A stretch of 64,000 nt of DNA. Origin: Candidatus Kinetoplastidibacterium crithidiae (GTDB lineage: Bacteria; Pseudomonadota; Gammaproteobacteria; Burkholderiales; Burkholderiaceae_B). Below are positions 1,311 to 20,727 of this stretch, one piece after another (position 1 is the stretch's first letter; every line of letters starts with the position of its first letter). The position numbers were made by a program, and so were the translations under genes. The notes below the pieces were generated by a model. The model searched no databases, had not been told where the DNA came from, and saw only the letters and a list, made by a program, of their open reading frames with translations. The stretch lies in contig JADMLC010000009.1 in the NCBI GenBank assembly GCA_019278155.1, forward strand, positions 62,001 through 126,000, given 5' to 3'.

Positions 1311-1976
1311 TTAATTTATCATTTTTAGTTTCTTTTCAGCTTTTAAAGAAACCTCTGAGTTTTTATATTGTTTTATTACTGTTTTTAAAATTTCTGTAGC
1401 ACCTGAGATATCGTTCAGAGCTATTTTACTGTCTGCAATTGTGATTAGAGCTTCTGGAACTCTATTTGTTGAGTTGTTTTTAATATATCCTTGTAGTTGT
1501 GTTATTGATTCTTTAAATTTGCCAAGTTTATATTTGCAAACTCCCGAGTAAAACTTGATTTCGTTTATTAGTTTAATGTCATAATTCATTTCTAGAATTT
1601 TATTGAATCTCTCCTCAGCCTCTGAGTATTTTTCATTTTTTAATAACTCTAGAGCGATTTTGAATTCTTGTTCCAACATATCTTCTGATTTTTTTTCTGG
1701 AATAATAACTTTAGAATTTTTAGTGCTATTATTTTCAACATTATTATTCTTAATAATTTCAACTTGATTTAGAATGCTTGCTAGTTCATGTTCTAGCATA
1801 TTAAGACGATTCAGCAATCCTAGATTAGATTTTTTTATGTTATCTATCTGTAATTGCATATCACTAGTTTTTGATGCAGCGTAAAAAGGTAACAGTAGTG
1901 TTATGAAAATTATTATGAATGATAGTATTTTTTTCATATGTAATGTATATATAAACTTATTATTTCTAGTAAACAT
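1311..1976 (-). CDS. ybgF: Tol-Pal system protein YbgF/CpoB, TPR-containing
   Basis: Signal peptide, coiled-coil N-terminus, TPR-like C-terminus; directly downstream of pal. Confidence 0.85.
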   Translation of the reverse strand: MFTRNNKFIYTLHMKKILSFIIIFITLLLPFYAASKTSDMQLQIDNIKKSNLGLLNRLNMLEHELASILNQVEIIKNNNVENNSTKNSKVIIPEKKSEDMLEQEFKIALELLKNEKYSEAEERFNKILEMNYDIKLINEIKFYSGVCKYKLGKFKESITQLQGYIKNNSTNRVPEALITIADSKIALNDISGATEILKTVIKQYKNSEVSLKAEKKLKMIN

Positions 1977-2474
1977 TTATTTATAACATATAATGTCAAC
2001 TCGTCGATTTTTTGCCAAATTTTCTTCGCAATTTTCTTCGCCATAGTTAGAATGATCTAATATAGAATTTGTTTTACCGAGACTTATAACCTCAATTTGA
2101 TTGTCACTAATACCTAAAACCTTAATTATTTTATATACGGCATAAGCTCTGCGTTGTCCTAGCGCGAGATTATATTCGAATCCTCCATTCTGATCTGTGT
2201 TTCCAATAATTTTTATTTTTAAAGAATGATTATCTAATATCGGAAATACAAAATCTTCTATTTCTGTTATATGCTCATCAGAAATAATATAGCTATTTTT
2301 ATCAAAAAAAACATGAGTTTTTTTCATGGTTTTATTTATTCTGTTTATTTGATTGCCCGGATATAATTCATATAACGAACAAGATGCTAGTGTAATATTT
2401 AATAAAAGTAATATAAGAATAGCAATGCTTTTTTTTATATAGGAATTGATTATATTAGTCGATCTGTTTTTCAT
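1977..2474 (-). CDS. pal: Peptidoglycan-associated lipoprotein Pal (OmpA-like)
   Basis: Lipobox LASC, FDKNSYII, GNTDQNGGFEYNLALGQRRA, NRRVDI motifs. Confidence 0.93.
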   Translation of the reverse strand: MKNRSTNIINSYIKKSIAILILLLLNITLASCSLYELYPGNQINRINKTMKKTHVFFDKNSYIISDEHITEIEDFVFPILDNHSLKIKIIGNTDQNGGFEYNLALGQRRAYAVYKIIKVLGISDNQIEVISLGKTNSILDHSNYGEENCEENLAKNRRVDIICYK

Positions 2475-3751
2475 TTAATTATAGGTCCCCACGAAGGATC
2501 AAATACTTCATAATTTGATTTTTCTTGAATTTTTTTTATTTGTGAGTTAAATAGTGATATTTGTGCTATAGAATTCATACCTTTTTCATTGATGTAAGAG
2601 TAGATTAAATATTCTCCATTTGGTGATATAGATGGAGATTGATCATGCTTTCCTGACGTAATCAATTCTTCTTTTTTTGATGACAAATCGAGAGAATATA
2701 TATTAAAATCATTATCAACTTTTTTTACATAAATTATCATGTTTTTATTAGGAAGTGCTACAGGTGAGCCATTGTAATCGCCATCAAAAGTAAGCCTTGT
2801 GATATTCTGACCATACAAATCAGTTGAATATATCTGATAACTACCGCTTCTATCACTTGCAAATAAGATATTTTTCCCATCAGAAGAAAAGCAAGCTTCA
2901 GTATCGCATGCTGATGATTTAATTAATCTTCTAAAAGAATTTGTTGCGACATCTAATATATAGATTTGAGACAATCCAGTTTCCGTCATAGTTAGAACTA
3001 TTTTTTCTCCATCTGGGGACCAAGATGGAGCACTATTGCTTCCTTTTTGATTAGCTATAATAACTCTATTAGATGTAAATAGATCATGCATATATGTTAT
3101 TGCTCTACCAGTTTCAAAACTTACATAAAGAATTTTGCTTCCATCTGGAGACCATTTTATTGATGTTATCGGCTTTGATGACCTAAGGGCTATTTGCTGG
3201 TTTTTGCCATCATGATCGGTGATTTGCAATTCGAAAATATTATTCTTTTTAACTATATAAGCTAATCGTGAAGTAAATATGCCTTTATTTCCTGTACTGG
3301 TTTCATATATTCTGTCGGAGATTATATGAGATATTCTTGTAATATCTTTTATTGATCCAGAGAATGATACTTTATCCAAGAAATTCTCTAAGTTTTCAAG
3401 AGTGAAATTTATTTCGTAAAGGTCATCTTGTAGATGGTTTACTTGTATAGAAACCATATAGTCGAAGTTATTTTTTCTAAGGAATCTGTTATAAATATTT
3501 TTTCTTTTATCTTTGTCTGAAACTTTTATTATCTTAAATTTGTTTGTACTCAATAAATTATTTCGTATTGTTTCTATAATTTTCTGCCCTTCATATGTAT
3601 TGTTATCATATTCATGTATTTTAATATTAAATTCTTTTGCTATTGATTGATTCTTATCTATGACTGGCTGTGCAGTTACCTGAGTAAAGTATGAAAAGAT
3701 AGCTAGAAAAAATAAAATTGCTGATACCAATTTTTCTTTACGAATATTCAT
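2471..3751 (-). CDS. tolB: Tol-Pal system beta-propeller protein TolB
   Basis: Repeated WSPDG/PSWSPDG propeller motifs; adjacent to pal. Confidence 0.95.
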   Translation of the reverse strand: MNIRKEKLVSAILFFLAIFSYFTQVTAQPVIDKNQSIAKEFNIKIHEYDNNTYEGQKIIETIRNNLLSTNKFKIIKVSDKDKRKNIYNRFLRKNNFDYMVSIQVNHLQDDLYEINFTLENLENFLDKVSFSGSIKDITRISHIISDRIYETSTGNKGIFTSRLAYIVKKNNIFELQITDHDGKNQQIALRSSKPITSIKWSPDGSKILYVSFETGRAITYMHDLFTSNRVIIANQKGSNSAPSWSPDGEKIVLTMTETGLSQIYILDVATNSFRRLIKSSACDTEACFSSDGKNILFASDRSGSYQIYSTDLYGQNITRLTFDGDYNGSPVALPNKNMIIYVKKVDNDFNIYSLDLSSKKEELITSGKHDQSPSISPNGEYLIYSYINEKGMNSIAQISLFNSQIKKIQEKSNYEVFDPSWGPIIK

Positions 3752-3758
3752 TTTTTTC

Positions 3759-4235
3759 CTATTCTTCGCGTGTTTTATAGATTATATGTAGTTGATAGTC
3801 TTCATTAGAAACTTGTTTTGTTATGAGTTCGTCACATCTTAATATGCCTATTTCAACAGCTTTATCTAAGGTGATATTTTTAGATGATTTTATCAAATTT
3901 AATTTATTTGGCTCAGTTTTTTTATTTATTTTAAATAGAAATTCTACTGCTTGATTATTCTCTAATTGTTGATACGAAAATCTAGGGTAGATTATTCCTG
4001 AGAGAATACATGTTTTTATGTCTTTTTTAGTTTGTTCATTTAAAACAGTTTTTTTTGGTGAATATAAAGCTATATTATTTTGATTTTTATCTTTTATTTC
4101 TTCATTATATTTATTGGAAGCAAATGTATTAAGTTGTATATAGATCAAGAATAAATACAATAAAATTATGAAGCTGAGTGTTTTTTTATGTTTAATAATT
4201 TTCATCTTTTGGGGTGATAAGAAGTACTTAGTCAT
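3759..4235 (-). CDS. tolA: Shortened TolA-like protein (TM anchor plus C-terminal domain III)
   Basis: C-terminus IKTCILSGIIYPRF...KLNLIKSSKNITLDKAVEIGILRCDELI matches the TolA C-terminal pattern; position between tolB and tolQ. Confidence 0.7.
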   Translation of the reverse strand: MTKYFLSPQKMKIIKHKKTLSFIILLYLFLIYIQLNTFASNKYNEEIKDKNQNNIALYSPKKTVLNEQTKKDIKTCILSGIIYPRFSYQQLENNQAVEFLFKINKKTEPNKLNLIKSSKNITLDKAVEIGILRCDELITKQVSNEDYQLHIIYKTREE

Positions 4236-4355
4236 ATATGAATATGAATTCCCAGAATACTCATATTTAATGAATGTAAATTCTAAATATTTAAAATACC
4301 AACAACATAAAAAAATGTCTTATTTTGTTAATTCTATCTGTATATGATTTATCGT

Positions 4356-5000
4356 TTATTTTTTTATGTTTTGTCTTTGTATTATAGTTAAAAGATCTTT
4401 TATAAAAATTCTGGATTCCATAGAATATTTTTTTGTCTTTTTTGTTATATAGAGATAAATTGTTTCTGACAATGATGACACTAATATAGTTATTATGACT
4501 AATAATATTGACTCCATTGCTCGAGGCATCAATAAAGTAGAATCAAGATTTTGTTGTTTGAAAAAATAGTTAATTATTTCAACATTATGTATTATGAAGC
4601 CTAATATTCCGATATAGAAAATACTGTTAGTTAGAATATATATCCCATCAATTTTATTTTGTATATTTAGTATTTCTTTTATTAAAATTACTTCCATAGC
4701 ATTTTTAGCAGAATTATTTCTTTCTAAAAATTGAGACCTAGAGAATTCAGTCATCCCCAAATCAAAGATTTTAGCTATAGGTGCTTTATTTTTTATATTA
4801 TGATTTTTCTTTTGTAAATCTATTAAATTTACTCCCGACCAGAATTCTTTTGTGAATTTTTTATTATTCTTTGAATGAGCATTTAGCATCGTTATAGTTT
4901 TTGTTGCGGTTTTAAGGAATAAAAACATAATGATAGATTGATAGATTATTATTATTTTTGTTATTAAGCTTAGATTGCAATAGATTGAAATTAAAGACAT
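4356..5000 (-). CDS. tolQ: Divergent TolQ (MotA/TolQ/ExbB family)
   Basis: FWSGVNL, three TM helices and LLTIIQRQ match TolQ layout; conserved channel motifs strongly altered. Confidence 0.65.
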   Translation of the reverse strand: MSLISIYCNLSLITKIIIIYQSIIMFLFLKTATKTITMLNAHSKNNKKFTKEFWSGVNLIDLQKKNHNIKNKAPIAKIFDLGMTEFSRSQFLERNNSAKNAMEVILIKEILNIQNKIDGIYILTNSIFYIGILGFIIHNVEIINYFFKQQNLDSTLLMPRAMESILLVIITILVSSLSETIYLYITKKTKKYSMESRIFIKDLLTIIQRQNIKK

Positions 5001-5061: not shown

Positions 5062-6789
5062 TTATAAAGCATCCAAAATTTTTGTGAGCTCTTGTAATGT
5101 TTCGTCTATAGGAATTTTTATTGATTCATTTGGTGATTTTCTAACTTTAATTTCAATTAAATTGTGTTCCAAATCTTTAGGTCCTATATTAATTCTACAT
5201 GGTATTCCTATCAAATCCCATTCTGCAAACATTATCCCTGGTCTGGTGTCTCTGTCATCGAGAATTACATCAATATTGTGTGCTTTAAGCAAATTGTAGA
5301 TTTTTATAGACATCTTTTTTATATGGTCATGTTTCCACCCTATTGGGCAGATAACTACTTCAAATGGTGCTATAGATTTTGGCCAAATCATGCCTAGAGA
5401 ATCATTATTCTGTTCGATAGCTGCCGCCATTACTCTAGTTATTCCTATGCCATAGCACCCCATTTGTAAAAATTCTTTTTCACCAGATTTATTTAAAAAA
5501 GATGCTCTTAAATCTTGGGAGTATTTCGTCCCCAGGAAAAATATATGACCAACTTCTATGCCTTTTTGTAGAGAAAAAGAGCCATTGCCATCAGGCAAGG
5601 GATCCCCTTCAACAACATTTCTTATGTCTGCAATCATATCTGGTTCTTTAAGGTTTATTGACCAATTGGCACCAGTATAGTGCGCATTTTTTTTGTTGGC
5701 TCCACAAGCAAAATCACTCATGTTTGCAACTGTAGTGTCTGCTACAATACAAACTGGTTTTGCTATATTGATCGGTCCAATATATCCTGGAGGACAATTG
5801 AAATATTCTTCTATTTCATTTGATGTTGCAAAACGATAATTATCTATTCCTAATATTTTTTTTGCCTTCACCTCATTTAGTGAGTGGTCTCCTCTGATTA
5901 ATAGTAAGAATATATGTGTAATATTATCGTCTTCACTTGCTAAAACAATAGATTTGATTGTTTTAGTAATTGGTATCTGCAAGAATTCTGATAGCTTTTC
6001 ACAGGTTGTTATTTCTGGAGTTGGGACAAGTATCATTGTTTCTTCGGCCTCTTGTCTTTTATTTAATAGGCAAGGCGCTACTGCTAATTCTAAATTGGCT
6101 GCATAATTTGATTTTTTATCATAGGCTATTGTATCTTCTCCTGTTTCAGCCAATACATGGAATTCATGGCTGTATGTTCCTCCTATAGATCCGGTATCGG
6201 CAGAAACAGCGCAGAAATTGAGCGAGATTCTTCTAAAAATTTCTGAATAGGTCTCGAACATAACATGATAGCTTTTTAAAGCGTCCTCTTCACTAACATC
6301 AAAAGAATAAGCGTCTTTCATTATAAATTCTCTACTTCGCAACATGCCAAATCTTGGTCTTACTTCATCACGAAATTTAGTTTGAATATGATAAAAAGTT
6401 AATGGTAATTGTTTATAACTATATATTTCATTTCTAGCTATATCTGATATAACTTCCTCTGATGTTGGTTGCAATACGAAATTGCGATTGTGTCTATCTT
6501 TAAATCTCAGTAATTCAGGGCCATATTCCTCTATTCTTCGAGATTCTTGCCATAGCTCAGCAGGTTGTACGATGGGCATAAGTATCTCTATGGCACCAGA
6601 TTTCGCCATCTCCTCTCTGACAATATTTTCTATTTTTCTTAGAACTCTTATGCCTATTGGCATTATGTTATAAATTCCTCCTGCTAATTTTCGTATCATC
6701 CCAGATTTAATCATTAGTTGATGGCTGATAATTTCTGCTTCAGAAGGTGTTTCTTTTGCTGTGTGTATGTGATATTTAGTGGCGTACAT
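5062..6789 (-). CDS. proS: Prolyl-tRNA synthetase
   Basis: Full length, class II aaRS motifs (LQPTSEEVI, FRDEVRPRFGMLRSREFIMKDAYSF, GIGITRVMAA). Confidence 0.97.
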   Translation of the reverse strand: MYATKYHIHTAKETPSEAEIISHQLMIKSGMIRKLAGGIYNIMPIGIRVLRKIENIVREEMAKSGAIEILMPIVQPAELWQESRRIEEYGPELLRFKDRHNRNFVLQPTSEEVISDIARNEIYSYKQLPLTFYHIQTKFRDEVRPRFGMLRSREFIMKDAYSFDVSEEDALKSYHVMFETYSEIFRRISLNFCAVSADTGSIGGTYSHEFHVLAETGEDTIAYDKKSNYAANLELAVAPCLLNKRQEAEETMILVPTPEITTCEKLSEFLQIPITKTIKSIVLASEDDNITHIFLLLIRGDHSLNEVKAKKILGIDNYRFATSNEIEEYFNCPPGYIGPINIAKPVCIVADTTVANMSDFACGANKKNAHYTGANWSINLKEPDMIADIRNVVEGDPLPDGNGSFSLQKGIEVGHIFFLGTKYSQDLRASFLNKSGEKEFLQMGCYGIGITRVMAAAIEQNNDSLGMIWPKSIAPFEVVICPIGWKHDHIKKMSIKIYNLLKAHNIDVILDDRDTRPGIMFAEWDLIGIPCRINIGPKDLEHNLIEIKVRKSPNESIKIPIDETLQELTKILDAL

Positions 6790-20305: not shown

Positions 20306-20361
20306 TATGTTATTTTATTATATTAATATTGATGAACAAATGATTTATTCAAGGAACAGTC

Positions 20362-20727
20362 ATGGCCCGTATTGCTGGCATTAATATTCCGCCACAACAG
20401 CATGCTGAGATTGGTCTTACCGCAATTTTTGGTATTGGACGTTCTAGTGCTCGCAAAATTTGTGAAGCTTCTGGAGTTTCTGTTAGCAAAAAAATAAAGG
20501 ATATGACCGATGCGGAATTGGAGCGGATTCGTGAACAAGTTAATTTGTTCACTGTAGAAGGTGATCTTCGTCGAGAGATTCAATTTTCAATCAAAAGGTT
20601 AATTGATCTTGGTACATATCGTGGTATGCGTCATAAAAGGGGTCTTCCCGTTCGAGGTCAGAGGACTCGCACTAATGCTCGCACTCGAAAGGGTCCACGT
20701 CGTGCTGCTGCCTCTCTGAAAAAATAA
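20362..20727 (+). CDS. rpsM: 30S ribosomal protein S13
   Basis: [34 protein letters not shown]. Confidence 0.97.

Follow-up and report, generated by a model that had tools for sequence, protein, structure and literature searches.

The Tol-Pal system encoded on the stretch of DNA analysed here (64,000 nucleotides, hereafter the window) has probably ceased to be driven by the proton motive force (PMF), with TolA', TolB and Pal likely forming a passive link and TolQ' likely acting as a scaffold devoid of motor function. Judging by sequence, the probability of this reading is placed at roughly 0.7. The source of the window was taken to be the Ca. Kinetoplastibacterium symbiont of Angomonas ambiguus TCC2435, and the assembly to which it belongs (G000) consists of 803,286 bases in 13 contigs and is 99.8% complete. 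The genus set used for comparison comprised eight genomes, seven of them single-contig. Four were compared as Angomonas symbionts, namely G000, G005 (presumably the A. desouzai symbiont), G006 (taken as the symbiont of strain PNG-M02) and G007 (taken as the A. deanei symbiont); G001-G003 and G004 are presumed to be symbionts of Strigomonas and Kentomonas, respectively.

On the minus strand of the window, genes were found in the order proS-tolQ'-tolA'-tolB-pal-ybgF. The upstream neighbour proS (5062..6789) is followed by tolQ' (4356..5000), encoding a TolQ homologue of 214 aa with three predicted TM helices, and by tolA' (3759..4205), the 148 aa product of which was identified by alignments as an N-terminal TM helix, a short linker and a domain III with both cysteines. 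Downstream of these lie tolB (2471..3751; TIGR02800, E 3e-97), found in 8/8 genus genomes, pal (1977..2474; TIGR02802, 7.4e-22; PF00691, 4.5e-13), encoding a lipobox and an OmpA-like peptidoglycan-binding domain, and a ybgF/cpoB-like gene (1311..1976; TIGR02795, 2.2e-16). Since free-living relatives carry both ybgC and tolR in the same gene order (proS-ybgC-tolQ-tolR-tolA-tolB-pal-ybgF, the name ybgC being our reading of a thioesterase-like ORF there), these two genes were judged to be missing from the locus, ybgC from between proS and tolQ' and tolR from the spacer at 4206..4355. The ORF of tolA' can open at 4235 or at an ATG at 4205. The latter start is likelier, because in the sister genome G006 an in-frame stop is situated just upstream of the same ATG (L047 3518-3547; the ten extra codons are 4206-4235 in the window), and it leaves a tolQ'-tolA' gap of 150 bp. 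The minus-strand order given by the sequence-only reading (tolQ-like, tolA-like, tolB, pal, ybgF) was seen again among the window ORFs, and its tolQ-tolA gap of 120 bp is exact for a tolA' opened at 4235. Elsewhere in the window (20310-20394), a match to Rfam RF00140 (alpha operon ribosome binding site) of 38.8 bits against a threshold of 38 overlaps the start of an rpsM-like gene and is possibly due to chance.

A search with the Pfam profile for ExbD/TolR (PF02472), positive controls included, identified the family in none of the eight genus genomes and in 23/23 other genomes of the family and order. Among genomes sampled from the order it was found in 395 of 398, the three lacking it being G000, its congener G002 and G360 (87% complete). 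An alignment search for TolR across the genus, run without a positive control of its own, gave nothing at E<=5, and translation of the tolQ'-tolA' spacer in all frames revealed neither TolR nor a remnant of it. This bears out the earlier observation that the locus has no tolR-like ORF, and the check that it proposed, for a tolR/exbD gene elsewhere in the genome, found none either genome- or genus-wide; a TolR encoded at another position was rejected on the empty Pfam ExbD and TolR alignment searches of the genus. A second ExbB/MotA was likewise sought in the symbiont's own genome and not found. The dimeric, Asp-bearing axle (TolR, ExbD or MotB) of a PMF-driven 5:2 motor is thus absent from both the genome and the genus. 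No genome of the genus retains TolR, which is most simply explained by a single ancestral loss.

Alignment and predicted fold mark TolQ' as a genuine TolQ, with a profile match that falls far short of the curated cut-off. It matched the NCBIfam tolQ model TIGR02796 over nearly its full length (2.9e-12; 46.8 bits against a curated cut-off of 221) with no match to Pfam PF01618, it matched TolQ structures of E. coli in the PDB (3.4e-7) and aligned with TolQ from end to end, and it occupies the TolQ position between proS and tolA/tolB. Its AlphaFold model (pLDDT 89) has the three-TM fold, with a TM-score of 0.88 to E. coli TolQ, and its best Foldseek matches were all TolQ (TMq 0.82-0.91); as the input alignment included normal TolQ sequences and guided the model, this is no independent proof of the fold. 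TolQ from the four Angomonas symbionts was aligned with that of 15 relatives and of E. coli, the last being a sequence that agrees with PDB TolQ over the stretch compared.

In E. coli TolQ, T145 and T178 form a polar ring contacting D23 of TolR. The corresponding residues in the window are F135 and V168; across the four Angomonas symbionts T145 is replaced by F/F/F/V and T178 by V/L/V/I, with threonine at both positions in all 16 other sequences, so that the ring in TM2/TM3 is missing from 4/4 of these symbionts. Two TM threonines had been read as replaced from the window alone, which the alignment bears out, and the motifs on which that reading drew (FWSGVNL, IIQRQ, and GILGFIIHN for GLFGTVWGI) were quoted correctly. 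In E. coli, T145A, T178A or D23A alone gives a tol phenotype (PMC12583513). TolQ' retains 21 of the 67 columns that are invariant in the 15 relatives and E. coli; those kept by all four Angomonas symbionts are concentrated in the cytoplasmic part (12/15) as opposed to the membrane (5/46; Fisher 1.2e-6), and E173 (E. coli numbering) is among the residues retained. Three changes at positions otherwise invariant are common to the four symbionts, namely L24Q, G181T and V189E (Q21, T171 and E179 of TolQ'), the last of which introduces an acidic residue into TM3; A174S, A177L and L182I are also common to them. As far as these alignments show, the TolQ proton path, comprising T145, T178 and many small residues of the pore region, has decayed.

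A similar state was found in TolA', where relatives' ORFs of approximately 270-470 aa compare with 148 aa. The whole of the central domain II and the essential histidine of the SHLS motif have been lost, a change which, like the loss of ybgC, had gone unremarked in the sequence-only reading. No histidine is present in the TM helix of TolA' in any of the four Angomonas genomes, and the membrane helix has no acidic residue. Domain III aligns to that of relatives, with both cysteines, and is conserved across the four symbionts. In the AlphaFold model of TolA', a linker of low confidence connects a TM helix (6-31) to a C-terminal alpha/beta domain, and fold matches of the model include TonB/TolA C-terminal domains with a probability of 0.95-0.97 and weak E-values. 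A Ser-His/Ser-Trp-Pro network has been described that links TolA His22 to TM3 of TolQ via S28, W32 and P138 (PMC12215075). These three TolQ residues are mostly gone in the Angomonas symbionts, S28 being retained in G005 only; P187, too, is kept in G005. By residue content, the TolQ-TolA coupling network (TolA H22; TolQ S28, W32, P138) has decayed. With its TolA-contact residues lost, TolQ' is disfavoured as holding TolA' in the classical manner, and the classical contact between the two may be gone.

At almost all points examined, the parts that couple the system to protons are either lacking or changed, which, judged by sequence and published mutants, makes PMF drive very unlikely. This supports the earlier suggestion that the motor may no longer be PMF-driven, tolR/exbD being absent elsewhere and the channel threonines gone. 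TolA has shrunk to a membrane anchor with domain III, and since domain III binds TolB in E. coli, TolA' could act as a passive link from the inner to the outer membrane via TolB and Pal, which would be the most economical explanation of the TolA'-TolB-Pal set. TolQ' would persist as a motorless membrane scaffold, neither pump nor channel; this is its most likely role because the TolQ fold is kept and selection acts mainly through the cytoplasmic domain. Retention of TolB, Pal and YbgF for another role is plausible, and most simply they would go on performing the passive share of their original one. Want of any proton circuit was rejected as the reason for the loss of the motor, since subunit a of an F-type ATP synthase is present in the genome.

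Pairwise codon models were applied to the three closest genomes, values against G005 being saturated and left out. For tolQ', the dN/dS analysis that the sequence-only reading had put forward indicated purifying selection, with an omega of 0.20-0.21 (LRT against omega=1 of 35-40). Corresponding values were 0.21-0.27 for tolA' (LRT 16-26), 0.11-0.17 for pal, 0.06-0.09 for tolB and 0.06-0.07 for proS, with omega=1 rejected throughout. Both tolQ' and tolA' are therefore under purifying selection, with an omega of about 0.2. Within tolQ', the cytoplasmic domain was the most tightly constrained region (pN/pS 0.19, 0.12-0.30). For TM1, the TolA-contacting helix, pN/pS could not be told apart from neutrality (0.65, 0.32-1.57), and the two regions differed with a permutation p of 0.003.

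The omega of tolQ' is 2-3 times that of tolB or proS, and the gene could therefore be in slow decay. It is conceivable, if rather unlikely, that selection on tolQ' and tolA' has been relaxed and that both genes, no longer functional, will shortly be deleted, as has already happened in the symbionts of Strigomonas and Kentomonas. Their omega above that of neighbouring genes, the near-neutral TM1, the complete loss of tolQ and tolA from sister lineages and the long-term reduction of the genome are in keeping with this. However, the open frames of both genes are intact in all four Angomonas genomes, across a split with near-saturated synonymous sites, omega=1 is rejected at the LRT values above, the cytoplasmic domain of TolQ' is strongly constrained and TolA domain III is conserved in all four.

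The sister lineages in question were covered by the comparison of sister endosymbionts that had also been proposed, which showed that TolR is absent genus-wide and that tolQ and tolA are kept only in the Angomonas symbionts. In G001-G004, an alignment search at E<=1 yielded no TolQ, tblastn within the locus yielded no tolA', and proS is followed directly by tolB; matches to TolB, Pal and YbgF lie side by side at the locus in all eight genus genomes. On a proS+tolB tree, the Kentomonas-type G004 branches outside the rest of the genus, so that one or two losses of tolQ and tolA are indicated (long-branch attraction is possible); as the lineages are few, their co-loss represents at most two events. 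The ybgF of G004 (L045 6312-6963) is split into two overlapping frames of 149 and 77 aa, which suggests either a frameshift or that the last gene of the Tol-Pal set is in the process of being lost in that lineage. The Strigomonas and Kentomonas symbionts exemplify yet another state, in which tolQ and tolA have disappeared and only TolB-Pal-YbgF is left, and the unpowered Angomonas variant is possibly a stage in the loss of the system.

It is unlikely that TolQ' has taken on a new function as a membrane scaffold independent of TolR, its conserved cytoplasmic face serving division or positioning of the symbiont. Most division genes have been lost from these symbionts, and their division depends on a dynamin-like protein of the host (PMC12505957). 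If this were true, L24Q, G181T and V189E would mark the new function. It is improbable that TolQ' is still ion-driven with a substitute for TolR, possibly an imported host-encoded protein. Such a role has been proposed for TolQ-vWA systems, in which TolQ homologues without tolR adjoin vWA proteins with an Asp-bearing transpore helix (PMC12204202), and targeting of host proteins to symbionts of this kind has been described (PMC12505957, PMC12176269). However, the threonine ring is described as conserved in those systems and both threonines are gone in TolQ', the genome holds no ExbD and no second ExbB/MotA, and the membrane helix of TolA' has no acidic residue. An assembly error or mis-annotation, with tolR in a gap or TolQ' being another protein, is barely credible: the 13-contig assembly was built from 454 and Illumina reads and frameshifted pseudogenes have been reported for it (PMC8229890), but the artefact is refuted by the same tolQ'-tolA' arrangement in three single-contig sister genomes, both genes are contiguous on one contig in the window, and TolQ identity is supported by profile, PDB match and fold.

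With the preferred reading of an unpowered Tol-Pal, the genus would offer a natural separation between the powered and the unpowered portion of the system: TolQ' and TolA' are retained without a motor in one host clade, and only TolB-Pal-YbgF in the others. This would make testable the long-standing question of what envelope role Tol-Pal has when the PMF is unused. It also suggests the sequence in which the parts of a proton-driven machine of the envelope are lost while a symbiont comes to resemble an organelle. No earlier report of a TolQ under selection that lacks both TolR and the threonine ring was found in the openly licensed literature. Compared with TolQRA-TolB-Pal of E. coli and Burkholderiales, the gene order, TolQ fold, TolA domain III, TolB, Pal and YbgF are shared, whereas TolR, YbgC, the channel threonines, the TolA histidine, the TolQ contact network and TolA domain II are lacking here. 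TolQ homologues without a tolR neighbour, having a vWA partner and an intact threonine ring, have been termed 'highly atypical' (PMC12204202). The absence of a tolR/exbD neighbour is common to those systems and to TolQ', but they keep the threonine ring and the Asp-bearing transpore helix, neither of which was found here, and TolA', TolB and Pal remain in the present system. Among other host-restricted bacteria with reduced genomes, Blochmannia retains tolQ-R-A-B-pal-ybgF (PMC4389277) and Buchnera is without a Tol-Pal locus (PMC12204202). The loss in the present symbionts is, in contrast, selective, the axle and proton path being gone and TolQ' and TolA' being kept in one host clade.
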